In this document: positions 2,800 through 25,311 of the stretch, one piece after another | Numbering within the stretch: the first letter of the stretch is position 1 | Layout: every line of letters begins with the position of its first letter | Virus record (IMG/VR): IMGVR_UViG_3300020601_000068 | Coordinates: 1-26,241 of that record | Reading direction: 5' to 3' (one strand) | DNA: 26,241 bases | From: a virus | Notes under the pieces: generated by a model | What the model was told of the DNA's origin: nothing | Databases searched by the model: none | What the model saw: only the letters and a program-made list of their open reading frames with translations | Made by a program: the position numbers and the translations under genes

Positions 2800-3900
2800 A
2801 TGAATAAGTCATTTTGCCCGATGGCATTTAAAGAAATCTACACTGATAATAGTGGCCAGTATAGATTATGTTGTCATGCAAAACAGAATAACGATTTAAA
2901 AAAATATAATTCATCAAATACTTTACCGTTTGAATTTTTTACATCAGAAGAAATGGAAAATATTCGAAATGATATGTTTGAGGGTAAACTTATTGATGAT
3001 TGCGAAGTTTGTTATAACCTAGAAAAATTAACAGGTAAATCTCATAGAACATTAAAACAATTAGAAAAATACGGATATGATACTGAGTTAAAAAATATTG
3101 GATTAAAATTAAGAATTAATGGTTCATATTGCAACTTGGGTTGCTATATGTGTCATCCCTATAATTCTTCAACTCGTCGAAATGAATTAAAAACTGTATT
3201 TGGTCCAAATAATAAATGGCAGAAAGATAATTTTAAATTTAAAAGTTTAAATAAAATTGAATGGAAAGATGCCGTAGCTGATATATTAAAAAATATTAAT
3301 TTAATCGACCGTCTGCATTTAACTGGTGGTGAACCATTATTATTGCCAAAGATGTGGGAATTAGTTGAGTTAATACCCGGTAAATATGCTAAAGATATTA
3401 ATTTGACATTTGATACTAATTTAACAAAATTAAATTATAAATCATATGATATTAATTTTTTAATTAATAAATTTAAATCAGTAAGTTTTTCTGTATCATG
3501 TGATCATTATGGCCAAAAACTTGCCTGGATGAGATATCCAATTAATGTAAGCGAATTTGAAGAAAATTTAGTAAAATCAAAACACATCATTAGTCAATTG
3601 GCCTGTACAGTATCATTATTAAATATTAATGATTTAAATGAAATTGAAAGTTATTATAAAAATAAATTCAATTTAAAAATGAATTTTGACTGTATTGTTA
3701 GTTGGCCAAAAGAATTATCAATAAGAAATTTGCCTGAAGATAAAAAGAATGAATATATTGAAAAATATTCACATCTATCTTTTGTTGTCGGTGAATTAAA
3801 AAAATCTCCTTATAAAGGAGATATGTTAAAAGAAGCAGAAGATTATTTAGATAAATTATCCACCCATCGCAATTTTAATTGGAGAGATTTGTGGAAATAA
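2800..3900 (+). CDS. Radical SAM protein with N-terminal SPASM/twitch-like cysteines
   Basis: 366 aa. The radical SAM core is shown by C111-x3-C115-x2-C118 (CNLGCYMC), which holds the 4Fe-4S cluster that cleaves S-adenosylmethionine, and by GGEP at 176-179. A second cysteine set precedes the core: C6, C24/C25, C68 and C71 (FCPMAF, RLCCHA, CEVC), resembling SPASM/twitch auxiliary-cluster motifs but placed at the N-terminus. The substrate is unknown; SPASM relatives often modify peptides or proteins. The gene is very AT-rich (12 G/C in 60 bases at 3241-3300), unlike its neighbours, which suggests recent acquisition. A weak GGAT precedes the ATG. It is bounded by a large hairpin and a bidirectional terminator, so it looks like an independent cargo gene. 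Confidence 0.88.
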   Translation: MNKSFCPMAFKEIYTDNSGQYRLCCHAKQNNDLKKYNSSNTLPFEFFTSEEMENIRNDMFEGKLIDDCEVCYNLEKLTGKSHRTLKQLEKYGYDTELKNIGLKLRINGSYCNLGCYMCHPYNSSTRRNELKTVFGPNNKWQKDNFKFKSLNKIEWKDAVADILKNINLIDRLHLTGGEPLLLPKMWELVELIPGKYAKDINLTFDTNLTKLNYKSYDINFLINKFKSVSFSVSCDHYGQKLAWMRYPINVSEFEENLVKSKHIISQLACTVSLLNINDLNEIESYYKNKFNLKMNFDCIVSWPKELSIRNLPEDKKNEYIEKYSHLSFVVGELKKSPYKGDMLKEAEDYLDKLSTHRNFNWRDLWK

Positions 3901-6258: not shown

Positions 6259-7717
6259 ATTGTGAATCCACCATATCTTTGTAAAGACCACCACCCACTA
6301 GTCCTCTAAATGCCCTTGCATTGTCAACATTCTTTTGGTTCTTATAAATGTCCTTGGGTTTATAAAACGCAGCGTCAACTAATCCAATTTGATATAAATC
6401 AAATCCAATTGGTATTACTTGTAAAGCCGCAATTGAGACATCTCCTGCTATGTCATTATCCGTAACGTTTGAATTAACCGTACTCTCTGTTGTCTGATTG
6501 TTTTGTTCTTGCAGTACAACGGGTGCTGATTCAAAGAGATTGCCTGTTGGAGAATTTCCTGTTAAGCTAATACTTTGAGTAGCCGATTCTGTTTCAGTTC
6601 TATTAGCTAAAGAATACATCTCACTGGCACTTTGACTTGAGCTACCAATTGCAATGCTTGATTGTTGACTTTGTGCTGATTGAACCGCCAGTTGAGATTG
6701 ACTAGATGCAACTGCAGATGATGCAACTGCTTCTGCCTGCTGTTGGGCCTCTGCAGTTGCCTGAGCTGCCTGCTCATTGGCTTGTTGAACTGCGGATGAT
6801 TCGACCGAAGATATTCTTGATTGCTCGTTTCTTACAATGCTGAGTATTGCACCAACTGAAAGACCATTTCCTACATTCCTAGAAGAGCTTGGATTGGTTG
6901 CTGTGACTACTGGTGATTGAGATGTAGTAACTACAGGAGCGGCCGAAGTAGATATTACCTCAGCTGTTGGTGTAGAAGTTTCAACTGCAGTTATTGGTTC
7001 AGTAGATGTTGTCTCCACCGACTGAGGCATTAACGCGGCAAGAGCATCTAGATAACCTGAGCATGTTGGAGCATGTAATGGATTAGACGCGCATGGATCA
7101 ACTGAGTAATTAACACTTAAAGTAACGTGCATAAACTCAGGTCCATAATAACCAGCCCAGAATCCATCATCCTTTCCTGTTATACTCAACCGAATAGAAT
7201 CAGCACTGGTCAAACTGTATGGATTTTCATATGTCCTCGTACCACTTGGATTAATCCAATCATCAATTCTATAACCATAATTGTATACGTCAGATTCAAG
7301 TACCTTACCTGAAGAGCTTAATAGGTCAACCGTAAAGTATGCGATAGAGTCATAACTACCGGGTTGTTCATCATTGATGTTTGAGTTCTTTACATGCCAA
7401 TGCCAGTTATATCCATTTACTAGTAACCCAGTGCCAGAGTCTGGAAGCACTTGACTTAATGCATATGCTTGACTTATTGTTTGCTGACCATAACTAAAAA
7501 TGATATGATTACTACCAGCGTATCCTCCATTACTAATCCCAGGACACGGTCCACCACTCTGCCCACCCCAAAAGCCATCAGCCGTAGGTGCCCAGCAACC
7601 TGCCCAGGTATTATCCTGAATTATGTTGCCAGTAGTGCCGGTATCTTGTGCGTTAGAATGCGACGCCAAAGACAGCAGCAAGGCCGATGCCAATAAGAAT
7701 CTTTTGATAAGAATCAT
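6248..7717 (-). CDS. Large exported protein with Ser/Thr/Gln/Ala-rich region
   Basis: 489 aa. The N-terminus has a clear signal peptide (about residues 1-23, ending SNA before QD). The mature N-terminal part (about 30-220) is rich in Gly, Trp, Tyr and Ser with two similar patches, DGFWGGQSGGPCPG (48-60) and DGFWAGYYGPE (184-194), probably a beta-sandwich. Residues about 235-420 are low-complexity Ser/Thr/Gln/Ala sequence, and the C-terminus is ordinary again. No enzyme motif is seen. The start lies inside the upstream gene: the frames overlap by 65 bases, and an AGAGG directly abuts the ATG, so translation is likely coupled. It could be a secreted or virion-surface protein; function unknown. 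Confidence 0.8.
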   Translation of the reverse strand: MILIKRFLLASALLLSLASHSNAQDTGTTGNIIQDNTWAGCWAPTADGFWGGQSGGPCPGISNGGYAGSNHIIFSYGQQTISQAYALSQVLPDSGTGLLVNGYNWHWHVKNSNINDEQPGSYDSIAYFTVDLLSSSGKVLESDVYNYGYRIDDWINPSGTRTYENPYSLTSADSIRLSITGKDDGFWAGYYGPEFMHVTLSVNYSVDPCASNPLHAPTCSGYLDALAALMPQSVETTSTEPITAVETSTPTAEVISTSAAPVVTTSQSPVVTATNPSSSRNVGNGLSVGAILSIVRNEQSRISSVESSAVQQANEQAAQATAEAQQQAEAVASSAVASSQSQLAVQSAQSQQSSIAIGSSSQSASEMYSLANRTETESATQSISLTGNSPTGNLFESAPVVLQEQNNQTTESTVNSNVTDNDIAGDVSIAALQVIPIGFDLYQIGLVDAAFYKPKDIYKNQKNVDNARAFRGLVGGGLYKDMVDSQYAR

Positions 7718-8561
7718 CCTCTTTTGTTATTTCGTGTTTAGGGATACGATCAGGCCAGTCAGTCCAAGCTCTTTTTGCTGCTTCACCAATCTGACCTTCA
7801 AAGGGACAGGGGGTACCTGCATGCCACATAGCATCAAAGATTCTTCTATCTTGACACATTACAGTAACAGCAGCAACTTTCATACCCATATCATATAAGA
7901 CTTTGGCATTCTTTAATCTCTCGCAGTTCAAATCTCTTACAGTTGAACCGCCTGAGATACCAAGTATCTGAGTTTGCACAGCACCACTTACACCAGTTGT
8001 ACAGAGATCATTACCACCACCGCTCATCATAGCTGGTGCTACAGCTGTAGGTGGTGGAGACTTCAATGTAGTCTCGTTCTTGTTAATATTAGTCATCGTT
8101 CCAGAATTTTCATTCTTATTAACATTATTGTTATTACTTGTATTAGTATTAACGTTATTGTTGTTTGAAGTACTGGACGATGTATTTGTATTATTATTTG
8201 TATTAACGCTGGTGTTATTATTTGTGTTAGTAGCTGTGGACGTATTATTGTTGTTATACGTCATCTCACCCGAGTTAACGTTATTATTGTTTATCGTCTG
8301 TTCACCACTATTAACGTTATAGTTGGTGTTAGTGTTATCACTCGTCGAGGTATTTGTGTTGGTATTGTTGGACGTGGAGTCCACAGTCGACGTACTTGTT
8401 GAAGTATTAGTCGAGGTATTACTATTCGTTGTGTTTACTGTGCTGGTGCTTGTAGAATTATTATTTGTATCTACAAGTGTAGTCGAGTCATAAACAGTTT
8501 GAGCTGTTACGGTTGATATAGCCATAATAAAGCTAGCACAGATTGCTAGCTTTTTTAACAT
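7653..8561 (-). CDS. Exported protein with long Asn/Ser/Thr tract
   Basis: 302 aa. A signal peptide (MLKKLAICASFIMAISTVTA, cleaved near residue 20) is followed by about 140 residues made almost only of Asn, Ser and Thr (about 30-165). A conserved-looking domain follows (about 180-270) with several cysteines and the phrase AKVLYDMGMKVAAVTVMCQD, a pattern I recall from exported proteins of marine phages. The C-terminus (ILIGIGLAAVFGVAF) is hydrophobic. A good CGGAGAA ribosome-binding site and a late promoter lie just upstream, so this is the first gene of a leftward late unit. The role is unknown; an extended sticky or glycosylated linker outside the cytoplasm is a reasonable guess. Confidence 0.82.
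   Translation of the reverse strand: MLKKLAICASFIMAISTVTAQTVYDSTTLVDTNNNSTSTSTVNTTNSNTSTNTSTSTSTVDSTSNNTNTNTSTSDNTNTNYNVNSGEQTINNNNVNSGEMTYNNNNTSTATNTNNNTSVNTNNNTNTSSSTSNNNNVNTNTSNNNNVNKNENSGTMTNINKNETTLKSPPPTAVAPAMMSGGGNDLCTTGVSGAVQTQILGISGGSTVRDLNCERLKNAKVLYDMGMKVAAVTVMCQDRRIFDAMWHAGTPCPFEGQIGEAAKRAWTDWPDRIPKHEITKEDDSYQKILIGIGLAAVFGVAF
8081..8474 (-). repeat. Low-complexity DNA coding for the Asn/Ser/Thr tract
   Basis: Irregular repeats built from AAT, AAC, ACT, AGT and TCG-type codons give a near-microsatellite stretch inside the exported-protein gene. The opposite strand reads as open Leu/Val-rich frames only because of this composition. Such tracts change length by slippage. Confidence 0.8.
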
Positions 8562-8590: not shown

Positions 8591-8598
8591 TATTTATA
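8591..8598 (-). promoter_or_regulatory. T4-type late promoter, leftward
   Basis: The minus strand reads TATAAATA, the T4 late promoter consensus, 30 bases upstream of the exported-protein ATG at 8561. The same 8-mer lies 26 and 31 bases before the ATGs at 13046 and 14269, the first genes of two other units. Confidence 0.75.
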
Positions 8599-8635: not shown

Positions 8636-9361
8636 TTATTTTTTTATTAAAATTATAAAATATTTTGTTGGGTCAAATTGCCACCATTTTTCCCCAATGC
8701 GAAAAGAACCAGGATGTTTATGATGATTTGCGTGCCATCCTTCGCCAGCGGTTAAAATATTAGAGATAGGTGAATTTGTTGGTTTTGCATTTTTATGACC
8801 TAATATATTTAATATTCCGTAGCCATGAAATGCAAATACTACAGGAATAGCATAACCAAATATAAACAACATTGGACTAATAATTAAAAATATTAAAACT
8901 ATTGCTATATTTACTGTATAAAAGTTTTTATAGAACCATAATAAAATCTTATTTTTCAATAAACGTTTTATATATTTTCTTTTGATAAAATAATTATAAC
9001 CCCAAGTATTTACATATACTGAAAATGCGCCTTTGTGCTGATATGAGTGTGGGTCCAATTCAGTATCAGAGTATGCGTGATGTTGTTTATGTGTTGCTGC
9101 CCATGTTAATGCTGGACCAGCACCACTAAAAATACCCAATATATTTACTATTATTTCGTAAAATTTTCCAGATTTAAAAGAATGGTGCGAATAATATCTA
9201 TGATAGCCACCAGAGATTGCTACAATGGCAATAATTTGCCACCATAAAAAACTCAACAAAAACATCCACCATTCACCATATATGAATGCTGGAATCAACA
9301 TCAAGTGGCACAGAGCATGATTGATCAATAATTTTGTTGTAGGATTTTTAATTATAAACAT
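8636..9361 (-). CDS. Membrane fatty-acid desaturase
   Basis: 241 aa. It belongs to the membrane di-iron desaturase/hydroxylase family and would introduce a double bond (or hydroxyl) into an acyl chain at the inner membrane. All three histidine boxes are present: HRYYSH (54-59), HKQHH (91-95) and HANHH (210-214). Hydrophobic segments lie at about 14-50, 65-90 and 150-190. The family is usually somewhat longer (270-350 aa), so it is compact but complete in motifs. I chose the ATG at 9361 over an in-frame GTG at 9373; neither has a good ribosome-binding site. It overlaps the upstream TauD-like gene by 14 bases and is the last gene of the AT-rich block (7 G/C in 60 bases at 8941-9000). Confidence 0.92.
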   Translation of the reverse strand: MFIIKNPTTKLLINHALCHLMLIPAFIYGEWWMFLLSFLWWQIIAIVAISGGYHRYYSHHSFKSGKFYEIIVNILGIFSGAGPALTWAATHKQHHAYSDTELDPHSYQHKGAFSVYVNTWGYNYFIKRKYIKRLLKNKILLWFYKNFYTVNIAIVLIFLIISPMLFIFGYAIPVVFAFHGYGILNILGHKNAKPTNSPISNILTAGEGWHANHHKHPGSFRIGEKWWQFDPTKYFIILIKK

Positions 9362-10163
9362 TTTTATAATCACAAGCTATTCTATGTAGTAATCTTTTAT
9401 CCATTCCATCAAAATGCCATCTTTTATGTATACTTAGCCACTGATCGCTAATAACTATATCACCATCATCCCAGTCATGATGATATGCATATTTTTCATT
9501 AAGTACATGATCAATTAGATTTTTCATTATGCTGGAAAATTCATCATTTGATCTATTAGCAAATTCCATAATTTGTAAAAATGGAAAGAATAAACCTTTT
9601 ACACCAGCGTGATTAGACATAACCAAATTATATGGAAGATCTCTATTTACATGTTCTTGGTATCTTAATGTAGGTGATACAGTACCGGCTTTATAACCAC
9701 AATATATTATAATGTCATTTATCTCTTCTTTAATTTTATCTGATAAATCATTATATGCATTGACCATATTGATCCAAGATGTCTTGGATCCTTTGGTACC
9801 TTTTACTCCATATAACCATACAACTGATTTTCTATTAGGTTCACTTGGTTTATTACAGTGCCAATCTAAAGTTTCTTTATGACCAAATAATCCTTCCCGA
9901 CCACGTTCATTTTTTTCACCAGTCACCCTAGCAATACCTGGAATATTGCTAACATCTCTATTCTTTTTTATCATTAATGGATTAGCAAGAGTATTCTCAA
10001 TCTCTCCGGCTACAGAACAAATTCTTAGTTGATCATCGGTTGTCAGATTTTGCTTTTTAAAAACAACGACTGTATGTGTTGCCACATTTCTAAAAACATC
10101 TTGTAATTCCAAATCAGACATAGAATTTATATTCTTGTCATAAAATTTAACCCAATTATTCAT
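9348..10163 (-). CDS. TauD-type 2OG/Fe(II) oxygenase paralogue with HxN triad (A)
   Basis: 271 aa from the ATG at 10163 (TTG and ATG codons further upstream are less likely, since this start aligns with the paralogue at 12478). The fold is shown by TauD-type motifs: LDWHCNK with H102 and N104, the 2OG-binding TSW with T128, and SDQWLSIHKR with H246, followed by R261 in RLLHRIACDY, the 2OG-carboxylate arginine. The first triad position is His-Cys-Asn, where TauD has His-x-Asp. Two nearby paralogues share this Asn. The substrate is unknown. Gene ends overlap on both sides (8 and 14 bases). AT-rich, like its neighbours. Confidence 0.85.
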   Translation of the reverse strand: MNNWVKFYDKNINSMSDLELQDVFRNVATHTVVVFKKQNLTTDDQLRICSVAGEIENTLANPLMIKKNRDVSNIPGIARVTGEKNERGREGLFGHKETLDWHCNKPSEPNRKSVVWLYGVKGTKGSKTSWINMVNAYNDLSDKIKEEINDIIIYCGYKAGTVSPTLRYQEHVNRDLPYNLVMSNHAGVKGLFFPFLQIMEFANRSNDEFSSIMKNLIDHVLNEKYAYHHDWDDGDIVISDQWLSIHKRWHFDGMDKRLLHRIACDYKNVYN

Positions 10164-10998
10164 AGCAATTCTCATAATCAAAAGAAAGTCTATATAAAAA
10201 TCTATTGCCTTTCACTTCATTTCTTTTGTGGATGCTGTGAAATTGATCCATAAAGATAAAATCGCCTGGCTTCCACGTATTATGGTGGTACATATATTTT
10301 TCTTGGAATACATGTTGCATTAGATATTGTTTAAGCCATACCTCATCTAATGCAATACCATTTCTTCTCCACATTTTAGTTATGTAATGAAAACTAAAAT
10401 ATAAACCCTTAGCACTATCATAAGGATGCTTATATACTAAAGATTTTGTTACGCCTTTAGGATATATTCTACTATTATCAAACATCCGAAGTTCTTTATC
10501 GTCTTTGTCAAGATGATAAAACGTATTATTCTGAAACATAAATGTGCAATCTACATCATTTACTATTTCCTTAATATCAGCAGGTAAATCATTATACGCT
10601 TGCCTTGTATCACAAAAACTGGTTATGCTATCAATACCAGGTTTTATACAATATAATGCAACACAACATTCTTTACCTGAAGGTCGTGCATTCCCATTTG
10701 AATGCCAATCCAATTCTTTATCGGCAAATATTCCAATTTTCTTACCTTCTTTTCTCTCATTGGTAACTCTGAATAGACCTGGATGTTCTGGGTGCATAAA
10801 AAACTGATTAGGTTTTAATACAGTACCAATGGTTTCACATACTCTTAGTATTTCGGATTCATTTAGATTTTGATTTCTAACAACAATAATATTATCATTA
10901 GCAATTGACTTGCCAAAAGATTTAATTTCATCTTTAGACATTTCATTAAAATCAAGATCGGTATATTCAACCGCTACATTATTAATTCTTTTTTTCAT
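10156..10998 (-). CDS. TauD-type 2OG/Fe(II) oxygenase paralogue with HxN triad (B)
   Basis: 280 aa, the most diverged of the three paralogues. Motifs in order: LDWHSNG with H99 and N101, SITSF with T126 (2OG site), a longer central insert (about 155-195), and MDQFHSIHKR with H257, then R270 in RFLYRLSFDY. The metal triad again has Asn in place of Asp/Glu. The ATG overlaps the previous stop as ATGA and no ribosome-binding site is seen, so it is probably translated by coupling. The different central part suggests a different substrate from A and C. I infer an enzyme or enzyme-like protein acting in the same pathway as its neighbours. Confidence 0.82.
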   Translation of the reverse strand: MKKRINNVAVEYTDLDFNEMSKDEIKSFGKSIANDNIIVVRNQNLNESEILRVCETIGTVLKPNQFFMHPEHPGLFRVTNERKEGKKIGIFADKELDWHSNGNARPSGKECCVALYCIKPGIDSITSFCDTRQAYNDLPADIKEIVNDVDCTFMFQNNTFYHLDKDDKELRMFDNSRIYPKGVTKSLVYKHPYDSAKGLYFSFHYITKMWRRNGIALDEVWLKQYLMQHVFQEKYMYHHNTWKPGDFIFMDQFHSIHKRNEVKGNRFLYRLSFDYENCYE

Positions 10999-11660
10999 TT
11001 TAAAATAGTTTCATTATTTGGAATATCGTCAAAAAATACACCAGTTATTACAACAATCCTCCAACCAGCATTATTAACAACTCTATGAGGCCAACCTTGA
11101 TTAATAAAATAAGTTTTACCTTCTTTCATTAAATTGGATTGCACACCTTCTTTATTTTTTGTTTCAAAAAAACTTTCAGCTGATTGAACCACTGTTTGTG
11201 TTCTACATAAAACACTAGTATCAGTGTCTATATGCCAATTCAATTCGTGATGTGGTGCCATAACAGAGATTCTTGTTCTATAATATTTACCGACACCATA
11301 CAGGTTATCAAAATATTTTTTAATTTCTGAGCAATCTATATCATCTCGCCATTCAGTATATAAGGTTTCATCCATAATTTGTGTAATACCATCAGGCAAT
11401 TTCTGCAATACAATTTGTCTATAATTTGATTCAACACCTTGCTTAAAATTTTCAACTGATTCACAGTGTTTTGATACCTCATATAAATCACCGCCAAGAT
11501 CATCTATTATATAAGTTTTAACAATATTTTTTACTGCTTGTATACATGAATTATCTACATGCTCATCAATAATGACACATTCATTAACTTGAGTACGTCT
11601 GGGTCCGTGAGAGGATACTACTCTTTGTTTTTTAGAATTTTTAATTGGGCACTGCTGCAT
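10995..11660 (-). CDS. Aspartyl/asparaginyl hydroxylase-like 2OG/Fe(II) oxygenase
   Basis: 221 aa. The C-terminal half is a cupin-type oxygenase domain: HHELNWHIDTD gives H143-x-D145, GWPHRVVN gives H192 and WRIVVI gives the 2OG-binding R201. This is the complete canonical triad, unlike the three TauD-type neighbours. The layout (HxD, then H about 47 residues later, then R 9 further on) fits the aspartyl/asparaginyl beta-hydroxylase group, members of which hydroxylate peptides or lipids. The N-terminal 100 residues are not recognised. It starts 5 bases after the upstream gene, without a ribosome-binding site, and overlaps the next start by 4 bases. Confidence 0.82.
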   Translation of the reverse strand: MQQCPIKNSKKQRVVSSHGPRRTQVNECVIIDEHVDNSCIQAVKNIVKTYIIDDLGGDLYEVSKHCESVENFKQGVESNYRQIVLQKLPDGITQIMDETLYTEWRDDIDCSEIKKYFDNLYGVGKYYRTRISVMAPHHELNWHIDTDTSVLCRTQTVVQSAESFFETKNKEGVQSNLMKEGKTYFINQGWPHRVVNNAGWRIVVITGVFFDDIPNNETILK

Positions 11661-11665
11661 ATAAT

Positions 11666-12478
11666 TTATGTATAAGTAAATAACGGATAGACATTTCTTG
11701 GATCAAATGCAACTCTGTGTATAACTCGCTCATCCATTTTATCAAACGCCCAGCGTTTATGTTGAGATAACCATTGTTCATTAAACACAATATCACCATC
11801 TTCCCAATCATGATGATATATGTATTTTTCTTGGACACAATGATTTTTAAGGTATTCTTTCCAAAAATTAAATTCCTCAGGGCCGTGATCCACAAATTCA
11901 AAGGTTTGAAAGAAAGGAATAAACAAGCCGGTCTTACCTTCTTCATTTGTTCGTACTAAAGGTAATGGGTTTTCATAGTTTATATGTTCTTTATGAAATG
12001 GTGAATCTGTATATAGTCCTCGTTTATAACCACATATAATTTTTATATCCAAAAGCTTGTTTTGAATATCTTTAGGCAAGTCTGACCACGCTTCAATTGT
12101 ATTTAAAAATGAAGTTCTAGAACCCTTGGTGCCTTTAACACCATAGATTGCAATAATTGGTTTACGGTCCGGATTACTTGCTTTATTTACATGCCATTCA
12201 AGAACTTCTTTATGCCCGAAAATGCCTCTAAGACCTTTTTCGTCTTTTTTACCTGTAACTCTTACAATACCATCAATGACAGATATTCCCTCCGTCCTTC
12301 CAGGAAACCAAGTTGGTTGAACATCACCAGCAACTTTAGCAATTCTTAATTGTTCTTCTGGTGAAAGACTTTGATTTTTCAACACAACAGTGGTGTGTTT
12401 ATAAACATCTCGAATTAAATTTTTTATTTCATCATCAGAAAATTCTTTTAAATCACCTTCTATCAATTTAGCATTCAT
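11666..12478 (-). CDS. TauD-type 2OG/Fe(II) oxygenase paralogue with HxN triad (C)
   Basis: 270 aa, the closest relative of A: both share GVKGTKGS, the GLFGHKE/GIFGHKE phrase, EKY-YHHDW-DGDIV and QWLS-HKRW-FD-MD. Motifs: LEWHVNK with H96 and N98, RTSF with T122, NEQWLSQHKR with H240 and R255 in RVIHRVAF. Asn again replaces the metal-binding acid. A GGAG box 8-9 bases before the ATG lies within the end of the upstream gene, which it overlaps by 11 bases. A and C probably arose by duplication, with B diverging earlier or arriving separately. Confidence 0.85.
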   Translation of the reverse strand: MNAKLIEGDLKEFSDDEIKNLIRDVYKHTTVVLKNQSLSPEEQLRIAKVAGDVQPTWFPGRTEGISVIDGIVRVTGKKDEKGLRGIFGHKEVLEWHVNKASNPDRKPIIAIYGVKGTKGSRTSFLNTIEAWSDLPKDIQNKLLDIKIICGYKRGLYTDSPFHKEHINYENPLPLVRTNEEGKTGLFIPFFQTFEFVDHGPEEFNFWKEYLKNHCVQEKYIYHHDWEDGDIVFNEQWLSQHKRWAFDKMDERVIHRVAFDPRNVYPLFTYT

Positions 12479-13046
12479 TTAATAATCTCCACTTTTCAAC
12501 GTCCATATTCGGTAAATTTACTTCTTTATCACCATATACACCTAAATTTTGCCATGAATTTGGTGTTGTTTGATATAACCCAGGCAAAAGTTTCCAATTG
12601 TGTCCTAATAATCTATTACACTTTTTAAAAAATTGTTCCAAGTTACCTCGGTGTGTTAATTTTTCCATAGTAATAATTAATGCTTCGGTTTTATTAGCAA
12701 CAAATTTCATTTGTTCTTGAAGCATAATCATTACTGGTGCTTTAGTATTTTCATATTCATATCTTATAGTTTTTCGTCTAATATCTGGATGATAAAAAGT
12801 TCTTGACATTAATCTAATACAATTATATTTTTTAAATTTTATCTCATCAACGGCCGCAAATGCCATAACTTTTTTATCAGCATTTACCATAATGGTCCAA
12901 TGCGAATATTGTTCAAGTGTGTTTATGATATTGCTTTTATTGTTTTTATCAAACCAACTTGAATTTTTATCATTAAATTTATTATAATGTTGTATCTGTG
13001 AAACAAATTCAGCTTTACCAATATCTTCCAATGATATTAATTTCAT
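12468..13046 (-). CDS. GNAT-like protein, first gene of the oxygenase block
   Basis: 192 aa. The centre (WTIMVNADKKVMAFAAVDEI, then RLMSRTFYHPDIRRKT) has the beta-strand, helix and loop pattern of a GNAT acyltransferase: a strand with AFAAV, an R-x-x-SR strand and a possible acyl-CoA-binding turn near RRK. The usual R/Q-x-x-G-x-G/A pyrophosphate loop is not clear, so activity is uncertain. It is the first gene after the late promoter at 13072-13079. A weak AGGT lies 7 bases before the ATG. Standing with a desaturase and oxygenases, it could be the acyl-transfer step of a shared pathway, but this is inference. Confidence 0.55.
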   Translation of the reverse strand: MKLISLEDIGKAEFVSQIQHYNKFNDKNSSWFDKNNKSNIINTLEQYSHWTIMVNADKKVMAFAAVDEIKFKKYNCIRLMSRTFYHPDIRRKTIRYEYENTKAPVMIMLQEQMKFVANKTEALIITMEKLTHRGNLEQFFKKCNRLLGHNWKLLPGLYQTTPNSWQNLGVYGDKEVNLPNMDVEKWRLLNEC

Positions 13047-13071: not shown

Positions 13072-13079
13072 TATTTATA
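13072..13079 (-). promoter_or_regulatory. T4-type late promoter for the oxygenase block, leftward
   Basis: The minus strand reads TATAAATA 26 bases before the ATG at 13046. It would drive the six-gene block late in infection. It lies back to back with the early promoter P3, which reads the other way. Confidence 0.75.
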
Positions 13080-14230: not shown

Positions 14231-14238
14231 TATAAATA
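14231..14238 (+). promoter_or_regulatory. T4-type late promoter, rightward
   Basis: TATAAATA, 31 bases before the ATG at 14269 and 18 bases after the terminator's T-run. It starts the long rightward late unit. Confidence 0.78.
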
Positions 14239-24217: not shown

Positions 24218-24551
24218 TGGCTGTGCTTCTTGGATATTTGGTAGTACGCCTGATGTAAAAGAAGTCCAAATCCAAACCAAACAGGTTGAAAGAACACCCC
24301 TCAATTTAGCTGAGCCAGCACCACTAAAGGCTCGTGACTTTCGTTTCATTATTATCACTCGAGATAATGCTGAAATGATGTTTGATGAACTGGAAAAGCA
24401 AGGTGCAGATCCAGTAGTCTTCGCCCTCACCGATGATGGTTATACACAACTATCATTAACAATAGCAGAAATTAGAATATTATTGGCATCTCAAAAATCC
24501 ATTATTGCCAAATATAAAGAATATTACGAGCCACCAGCCCCTGCTGAATAA
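24168..24551 (+). CDS. Probable outer-membrane spanin lipoprotein (o-spanin)
   Basis: 127 aa with a GTG start, supported by AGAGG (24157-24161) 6 bases upstream. The N-terminus has a lipoprotein signal ending in LISGC (residues 15-19), so Cys19 should be lipidated and anchored in the outer membrane. The mature part contains RDFRFIIITRDNAEMMFDE and DDGYTQLSLTIAEIRILLAS, which I recall from spanin-type lipoproteins of T4-like marine phages, and ends in a Pro/Ala-rich tail. It overlaps the i-spanin gene by 50 bases in a different frame. Together they would disrupt the outer membrane. Confidence 0.82.
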   Translation: MNVLRLLTLVTIPLLISGCASWIFGSTPDVKEVQIQTKQVERTPLNLAEPAPLKARDFRFIIITRDNAEMMFDELEKQGADPVVFALTDDGYTQLSLTIAEIRILLASQKSIIAKYKEYYEPPAPAE

Positions 24552-24576
24552 TAATTTCTTATTTAAAAATTTAATT

Positions 24577-25311
24577 ATGAGAACCTTTTTTGAATTAGAT
24601 AAACAAGGACGTGAACTTATACATGGTCGTGAACCACAGAGACCAAAATATCATGAAATGCCAAAAGAAATAACATTTCCAACATCGGAAGATATGGCAT
24701 GTGAAGCACAACTTTCTGCAATAGGGACGTGGGAAGCACTTAGATTTAAAATTGATAGTGCTGAATGGAGAAAAAATGAAAAAGCCGTAGTAGATTTATG
24801 GCGACCATTTCAACCAAAACCCGGTATTTCTAATGATAGAGAAAGTATTTTATTATATGGTGCTGAAGGTGCACATCCGACAGATCCATGCGGATTAGCA
24901 CAAATGGCTAGAAATACTTGTGTAAAACCAAAAGAAGATTCAATGACATATCCTACAAGTGCTAAAGATATGTTTACATGTTTAAATAATATTTTTGATT
25001 ATTTTGATTTTGGTAGAACATTTGCTGTAAGATTAAATCAAGGTGGTCATTATCCACAACATAGAGATCATTTATTACTTACCCGGCCTACATTTAGATT
25101 AATTGCTTTTTTAGGAGATTCAACAGGAGCCCTAAAATGGGAGGTTGAAGAAAAAAGAGTCCATATTGAACCTAATCATTTATATTATGTTGATACAAGA
25201 AAAATGCATAGCTTATGGAGTGGCGAGCACAAAAGCACTATGGTTGTATTCAATGTAATAAAAAATTGGGAAAATGTTTTAAAAGTGCTTTCAGTATTAA
25301 AATATCAGTAA
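24577..25311 (+). CDS. 2OG/Fe(II) oxygenase-like protein (AT-rich cargo gene)
   Basis: 244 aa from the ATG at 24577. A TTG-initiated extension reaches back into the previous gene, but the ATG is more likely; neither has a ribosome-binding site. Residues 145-228 look like the cupin oxygenase core: RLNQGGHYPQHRDH gives H162-x-D164, and TRKMHSLWSG gives H211. The arginine expected about 10 residues after H211 is missing (HKSTMVV lies there), so 2OG binding is uncertain. The closest type is the aspartyl/asparaginyl hydroxylase-like group, as at 10995. Low GC (12 of 60 bases at 24961-25020) ties it to the accessory genes at 2800 and 8636-13046. Confidence 0.72.
   Translation: MRTFFELDKQGRELIHGREPQRPKYHEMPKEITFPTSEDMACEAQLSAIGTWEALRFKIDSAEWRKNEKAVVDLWRPFQPKPGISNDRESILLYGAEGAHPTDPCGLAQMARNTCVKPKEDSMTYPTSAKDMFTCLNNIFDYFDFGRTFAVRLNQGGHYPQHRDHLLLTRPTFRLIAFLGDSTGALKWEVEEKRVHIEPNHLYYVDTRKMHSLWSGEHKSTMVVFNVIKNWENVLKVLSVLKYQ

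Follow-up and report, generated by a model that had tools for sequence, protein, structure and literature searches.

Three genes on the minus strand of a 26,241-base viral record in IMG/VR, from a marine phage (IMGVR_UViG_3300020601_000068; the whole of this stretch is referred to here as the window, and all positions are counted along it) belong by sequence and by predicted fold to the TauD/TfdA family (PF02668), and all three carry His-x-Asn (HxN) in place of the His-x-Asp/Glu of the 2-His-1-carboxylate oxygenases. A very large superfamily of enzymes is defined by this metal site, the 2-His-1-carboxylate triad. The reading of the three genes that we favour, with a probability of roughly 0.6, is that they encode working TauD-fold oxygenases of the Fe(II)/2-oxoglutarate (2OG) type which have a neutral His-x-Asn...His triad and which form part of a recurrent oxidative gene cluster of phages. 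The genes are the following.

11666-12478, minus strand: TauD-A, 270 amino acids, HxN, matching PF02668 at 91.7 bits.
10156-10998, minus strand: TauD-B, 280 amino acids, HxN, matching PF02668 at 82 bits.
9348-10181, minus strand: TauD-C, HxN, matching PF02668 at 93 bits; the open reading frame has 277 amino acids from a TTG and 271 from an ATG at 10163, which is the likelier start.

All three scores lie far above the curated PF02668 cut-off of 27 bits. The same genes give no match to PF05118, the AspH family, and the taurine dioxygenase equivalog NF007104, which has a cut-off of 313 bits, scores at most 35.8 bits against any of them. The AlphaFold2 (AF2) model of TauD-A, which has a predicted local distance difference test score (pLDDT) of 94.9, has a TauD-type jelly-roll fold, and its best Foldseek matches are AAD-1, RdpA/FT_5, PlaO1 and E. 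coli TauD (E values of 1e-17 to 1e-16), with template modelling (TM) scores of about 0.71-0.76 against AAD-1 and TauD.

A first-pass annotation of the window, made from the letters alone, had reported the motifs WHVN, WHSN and WHCN in the three genes, and these are borne out by the bases: H96-V-N98 in TauD-A (cat-gta-aat, 12193-12185), H99-S-N101 in TauD-B (cat-tca-aat, 10704-10696) and H108-C-N110 in TauD-C (cac-tgt-aat, 9860-9852; H102 and N104 when counted from the ATG). When the genes are aligned to solved structures, as single sequences or through profiles, the Asn of each falls on D101 of TauD, and also on the Asp ligand of AAD-1/RdpA and of AAD-2. The remaining elements of the site are present, as the annotation had stated for the 2OG-site Thr (T122 in TauD-A, T126 in TauD-B and T134 in TauD-C, the counterparts of the TauD residue T126, which touches 2OG) and for the distal His (H240, at 11761-11759, in TauD-A, H257 in TauD-B and H252 in TauD-C). 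Its statement about the Arg that holds 2OG was right in that a conserved Arg is present, while the residue that it named corresponds to TauD R270 (H+15, counted from the distal His, in TauD-A and TauD-C) rather than to R266. There are in fact two Arg, at H+11 and H+15, which in TauD-A are R251 and R255 and align with TauD R266 and R270; R266 is the residue that we take to hold the C5-carboxylate of 2OG, so that its counterpart here would be the Arg at H+11.

Because the 2OG-binding residues are intact, the sites are best read as those of functional oxygenases with a 2-His-1-Asn arrangement or, in some relatives described below, a 3-His arrangement. The metal would be held by two His, and 2OG by the conserved Arg and Thr; a neutral amide would replace the carboxylate as the third ligand, with the Asn probably on the metal through its side-chain oxygen, perhaps weakly. 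With a neutral ligand the iron-2OG complex would differ in charge by one unit, which should alter its redox and oxygen chemistry. From the sequences we infer metal binding by the Asn, use of iron and 2OG, catalysis, and participation of the products in a shared pathway.

Whether the Asn is a property of this one window or of a wider group of proteins was addressed with a scan of viral contigs, in which the query was an alignment of the three TauDs together with patterns that did not contain the motif, and which returned 80 loci; TauD-A alone, used as a single-sequence query against viral contigs, gave no matches. After identical sequences were removed and three loci from bacterial bins were added, the first phage set consisted of 92 distinct phage-type rows. 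The third-ligand position in these rows is occupied by N in 77, H in 4 and D in 10, with 1 gap, and the distal His is kept in 91 of the 92, the remaining row having a gap there. The three loci from bacterial bins (L084-L086), whose matches are not Asp, lie on short contigs, and two of them (L084 and L086) share neighbour families with phage loci; they look like phage fragments. A second phage subfamily, typified by a protein of Prochlorococcus phage P-HM2, was scanned separately and has N in all 58 of its readable distinct rows. Two further rows that do not align (L199 and L200) seemed to lack the motif, which proved to be an alignment artefact; both read WHSN, which brings the subfamily to 60/60 HxN. 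More than 130 distinct phage proteins with HxN were found in total, including proteins of two cultured phages, the WHSN TauD QOI69039.1 of Pelagibacter phage Mosig and the HxN TauD ADO99782.1 of P-HM2; P-HM1 and MED4-213 carry close relatives of the latter.

The bacterial comparison, which consisted of the nearest TauDs in 299 sampled genomes of one phylum together with relatives from another scan and which therefore covers essentially one phylum, gave HxD in 35 of 35 rows. The contrast between these relatives and the phage clade confirms the earlier judgement that the Asn is not random decay, and the collection of homologues that the first-pass annotation had proposed does recover a phage clade in which HxN is conserved. 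Local decay or sequencing error is ruled out by the conservation of the motif over many contigs. Asp and Asn do mix in the wider set of phage TauDs, in which the rows with Asp are either separate subfamilies or two nested long-branch rows; the Asn is thus not restricted to this window, and it was such a restriction that would have told against the annotation.

The strength with which the Asn is retained was assessed by counting conservation over 74 rows of the clade, in TauD-A numbering and across 251 columns. Since the rows are related sequences, these counts measure persistence along the tree and are not independent trials. W95, H96, T122, H240, R251 and R255 are invariant. The N98 column contains 68 N, 4 H and 2 D, and ranks 22nd of the 251 columns, above every other Asn column; the next Asn columns slip readily (49 N and 24 D at N126; 45 N and 23 H at N178). 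The codon at N98 drifts (AAT in 56 cases, AAC in 19) but the residue stays, even though Asp is only one transition away, and the only replacements are His and Asp, both of them metal-binding residues. No newly conserved acid was found in the clade when all columns were checked. This result, together with the single-sequence, profile and multiple alignments, rules out a misalignment that hides an acid; the alternative alignment with an acid ligand, which the annotation had named as a possible refutation, was thus looked for and did not appear.

The invariant positions bear on the possibility that these are non-catalytic TauD-fold proteins which serve as sensors or scaffolds and bind 2OG, a metal or something else. 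The loss of the ligand that tested relatives require (PMC2767507) and the presence of several copies per phage are what such proteins might be expected to show, but a deeply diverged clade shows no variation at either metal His, at either Arg or at the Thr, and the genes are found within clusters of oxidative genes, so that we regard this possibility as quite unlikely. The annotation had offered three functional options for the Asn, and the non-enzymatic one is disfavoured because the other catalytic positions are invariant; the other two, a tuning of iron binding and the admission of another ligand, are inseparable by sequence.

The columns which set the clade apart from its bacterial relatives include gains of R73, H222, K241, R242, S120, S123 and Q235, among others. 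At Q235, five residues before the distal His, the sub-clade has Gln in 71 of 72 rows, as against Asn in 27 of 30 bacterial relatives; in VioC the residue at this place, Asn311, and the ligand His316 have an ordered water in common (PMC11301626). A strict coupling of HxN to this Gln is ruled out, given that the P-HM2 type keeps the Asn while two HxD rows (L039 and L041) and L010 keep the Gln. The new basic residues R73, K241 and R242 could also accompany an open site, in which the Asn would be off the metal, water or an external anion would be bound in the acid's place, and the outcome would be hydroxylation with a water ligand or the transfer of an anion. There are precedents for both forms: in AspH, which is an active hydroxylase, a water stands beside the two His where the acid would be (PMC13168262), and the Fe/2OG halogenases have a vacated site (PMC11301626). 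Known vacated sites, however, use small residues, while the site here holds only N, H or D, with Ala, Gly and Ser, the first two of which are the halogenase type, in none of the rows; the exchange of Asn for His points to a ligand; and AspH apparently does not halogenate EGF-like domains (PMC13168262). An open site is accordingly judged unlikely.

The history of the position was followed on two trees. On the first, which has 112 rows and was built with the trait column left out, the states need 5 changes, compared with a mean of 36.6 when they are shuffled. On the second, to which the P-HM2 group was added, they need 6, and all of the HxN and HxH rows fall in one 50-row phage clade, which has a support of 94 in the Shimodaira-Hasegawa-like approximate likelihood ratio test (SH-aLRT) and also contains four HxD rows; a single origin of HxN is not rejected (approximately unbiased test, p 0.086). 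The HxD rows L039 and L041 are nested deep within the HxN clade and look like returns to Asp. TauD-A and TauD-C are 48% identical, while TauD-B lies in a separate old phage lineage (the WHSNG type, a 22-row clade of the tree with an SH-aLRT of 99), and each of the three copies has its own orthologue in contig L004. Because the lineages are separate and each copy has its L004 orthologue, the Asn predates the multiplication of the genes that is seen in the window, and a recent tandem duplication is ruled out on the same grounds. The HxH rows form one sub-clade (SH-aLRT 99-100), whose members keep the 2OG residues:

L014, 5926-6840: HxH TauD.
L016, 6001-6843: HxH TauD.
L018, 3840-4733: HxH TauD.
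L084, 3335-4189: HxH TauD.

In this sub-clade His would take over the ligand role of the Asn and, together with the distal His, would make a possible 3-His site. Such sites occur in cofactor-independent dioxygenases, and a neutral triad, including that of the HxH...H sub-clade, could suit another metal such as Cu, Mn or Co; the proteins might then use that metal or another co-substrate and not be Fe/2OG enzymes. With the Arg and Thr positions that bind 2OG invariant, this appears highly improbable.

The existence of the His sub-clade, like the retention of the Asn one transition away from Asp, also speaks against the suggestion that the Asn is deamidated to Asp and the proteins then act as ordinary 2-His-1-carboxylate hydroxylases. 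Of the 69 HxN rows counted, 22, TauD-B among them, have the Asn followed by Gly, a context in which deamidation is fast, but most HxN rows, TauD-A and TauD-C included, have Gln, Lys, Arg or other residues there, and the P-HM2-type proteins have Glu. Deamidation, which the first-pass annotation had listed as a refutation, could at most favour the Asn-Gly subset; we consider it very improbable indeed as an account of the clade.

Several points weigh against working oxygenases with a neutral triad. In characterised enzymes the acid tolerates hardly any substitution: the D101A variant of TauD is inactive, and only Glu has been reported to keep activity when it replaces Asp414 of P4H (PMC2767507). 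Strict conservation could fit a protein that only binds as well as one that catalyses; the two nested returns to Asp show that the Asn is dispensable in some contexts; and the support consists of sequence and fold prediction, with an AF2 model that contains no metal.

The genes around the three TauDs indicate the setting in which the proposed oxygenases would act. Six minus-strand genes, which overlap or nearly touch, fill the stretch between 13046 and 8636, and the three that accompany the TauDs are listed here with two other features.

12468-13046, minus strand: GNAT-like protein, 192 amino acids, the first gene of the operon, assigned by fold prediction.
10995-11660, minus strand: AspH-like 2OG oxygenase with HxD (LNWHIDTD), between TauD-A and TauD-B, with a weak match to PF05118.
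8636-9373, minus strand: membrane diiron protein resembling fatty-acid desaturases, the last gene of the operon, matching PF00487 with an E value of 5.5e-14.
13072-13079, minus strand: TATAAATA, a motif like the late promoters of T4-type phages, 26 bases upstream of the first ATG of the operon.
2800-3900, plus strand: radical SAM protein, not adjacent to the operon, matching PF04055 with an E value of 5.7e-9; the family recurs beside HxN TauDs.

The GNAT-like protein has no significant match in Pfam; its AF2 model (pLDDT 92.7) matches GNAT acetyltransferases in Foldseek with E values of about 1e-4 and TM scores of about 0.5. The histidine boxes of the desaturase are conserved, with H58, H63, H95, H98, H99, H193, H214, H217 and H218 invariant. 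The gene at 10995-11660 is AspH-like and not a TauD (its match to PF05118 has an E value of 0.023, and that of its relative L065 has one of 3.7e-4). Two statements of the annotation have to be corrected on this account: the three TauD genes are not strictly in tandem, as the AspH-like gene separates TauD-A from TauD-B and TauD-C, and the HxD of this neighbour, which had been taken to show that the change is lineage-specific, has no bearing on lineage specificity because the neighbour belongs to another family. The AspH-like family is very large and poorly named, and the operon's member has HxD although AspH itself is without the acid; a second member lies in the window at 24505-25311.

When the neighbourhoods of HxN genes were clustered, AspH-like oxygenases were found in 128 copies in 51 loci, often several per locus, radical SAM proteins of one family (family 2) in 54 copies in 29 loci, the desaturase in 33 and the GNAT-like protein in 28 loci. 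The reciprocal test started from 35 loci found through the desaturase and is only partly independent, since many of the contigs were already in the first set. Within 7 kb, 29 of these loci have an AspH-like gene, 27 the GNAT-like gene and 22 an HxN TauD; HxD TauDs of other subfamilies are present in 17 of these loci. In Mosig the corresponding cluster (L125, 48487-65281) contains a nitroreductase, an AspH-like protein, the desaturase, an aminotransferase, an FMN reductase, the HxN TauD, a methylase and a GNAT protein, and directly adjoins tail-fibre genes. Judged from its gene content, the cluster looks like one for small-molecule biosynthesis, and the TauDs may oxidise a small molecule jointly with the AspH-like oxygenase, the diiron desaturase and the GNAT-like protein of the same overlapping operon.

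Some other features of these neighbourhoods and of the window were noted. Radical SAM proteins of families 2, 11 and 13 occur near HxN TauDs, some with weak B12-binding matches. Downstream of the TauD in L022-L029 and L012 there is a different conserved neighbourhood, with a radical SAM protein of 506 amino acids that has a weak B12-binding match, a methyltransferase-like gene, several small oxygenase-like proteins and, by eye only, a sulfotransferase-looking gene. The TATAAATA motif occurs four times in the window, no more often than chance would give (46 of 100 shuffles); three of the four lie just upstream of genes, where late promoters of the T4 type would be expected, at 8591-8598 (minus strand), 13072-13079 (minus strand) and 14231-14238 (plus strand). 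The minus-strand gene at 7653-8561 encodes a secreted-looking protein with a long repeat region rich in Asn, Thr and Ser that is related to phrog_20531, a family of unknown function. A search with the first 12 kb of the window at the DNA level found no near phage relative.

If the proposed neutral triad is real, a deeply conserved clade with a neutral ligand would show what purpose the carboxylate serves, and might reveal new reactivity. The natural switches from N to H and from N to D, together with the HxD paralogues in the same clusters, constitute built-in comparisons, and the cultured phages (Mosig, P-HM1/P-HM2 and MED4-213) make the neutral-triad reading testable. A broader proposal, which we entertain only tentatively, is that the proteins represent a class of neutral-triad Fe/2OG enzymes that is common in marine phages, whose chemistry goes beyond that of the carboxylate triad (another oxidation, anion transfer or another metal) and which serves a phage biosynthetic pathway. 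To our knowledge, the characterised natural exceptions to the carboxylate triad, namely the halogenases and AspH, vacate the site. A search of the literature for a natural His-x-Asn clade of TauDs or for a “2-His-1-Asn” facial triad found none, with coverage that is incomplete and leaves priority unproven. In a survey of phage 2OG oxygenases based on structures, a glutamine is reported to rank next after the two His in conservation but is nevertheless described as belonging to the carboxylate triad (PMC12774648); this may be a further phage family whose ligand is neutral.

Phage TauD genes were already known by name; what appears to be new is that members of the TauD family lack the 2-His-1-carboxylate feature. 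The P-HM1/P-HM2 “taurine catabolism dioxygenase” (T4-GC447), which a 2010 comparison gives by name only (PMC3037559), is likewise a phage TauD with WHSN. It is about 350 amino acids long, keeps the Asn before the distal His and, in P-HM2, lies among DNA-replication genes; the GenBank label “taurine catabolism dioxygenase” overstates what is known of these phage genes. The characterised members of TauD/TfdA (E. coli TauD, AAD-1/RdpA and AAD-2) are like the phage proteins in sequence family, predicted fold, both His, the Thr and the Arg at H+11 and H+15, and differ in having Asp where these have Asn and, for one sub-clade here, in the Gln that takes the place of the Asn five residues before the distal His. 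The Fe/2OG halogenases (SyrB2, BesD and WelO5) have likewise lost the carboxylate ligand naturally while keeping two His and the 2OG site, but they carry Ala or Gly, and halide binds in the open anion site left vacant (PMC11301626), whereas the phage TauDs keep a side chain that is able to bind metal. AspH is likewise a 2OG hydroxylase without a carboxylate ligand, but it belongs to a different family and water replaces the acid. A precedent for the exchange of residues comes from the lipoxygenases, where rabbit ALOX15 has His545 and human ALOX12 has Asn544 at one neutral iron-ligand position (PMC11593649); the fold is unrelated, there is no 2OG and there are five protein ligands, but the interchange of Asn and His in the phage TauDs resembles this case and suggests, by analogy, a neutral ligand that remains in contact with the metal.

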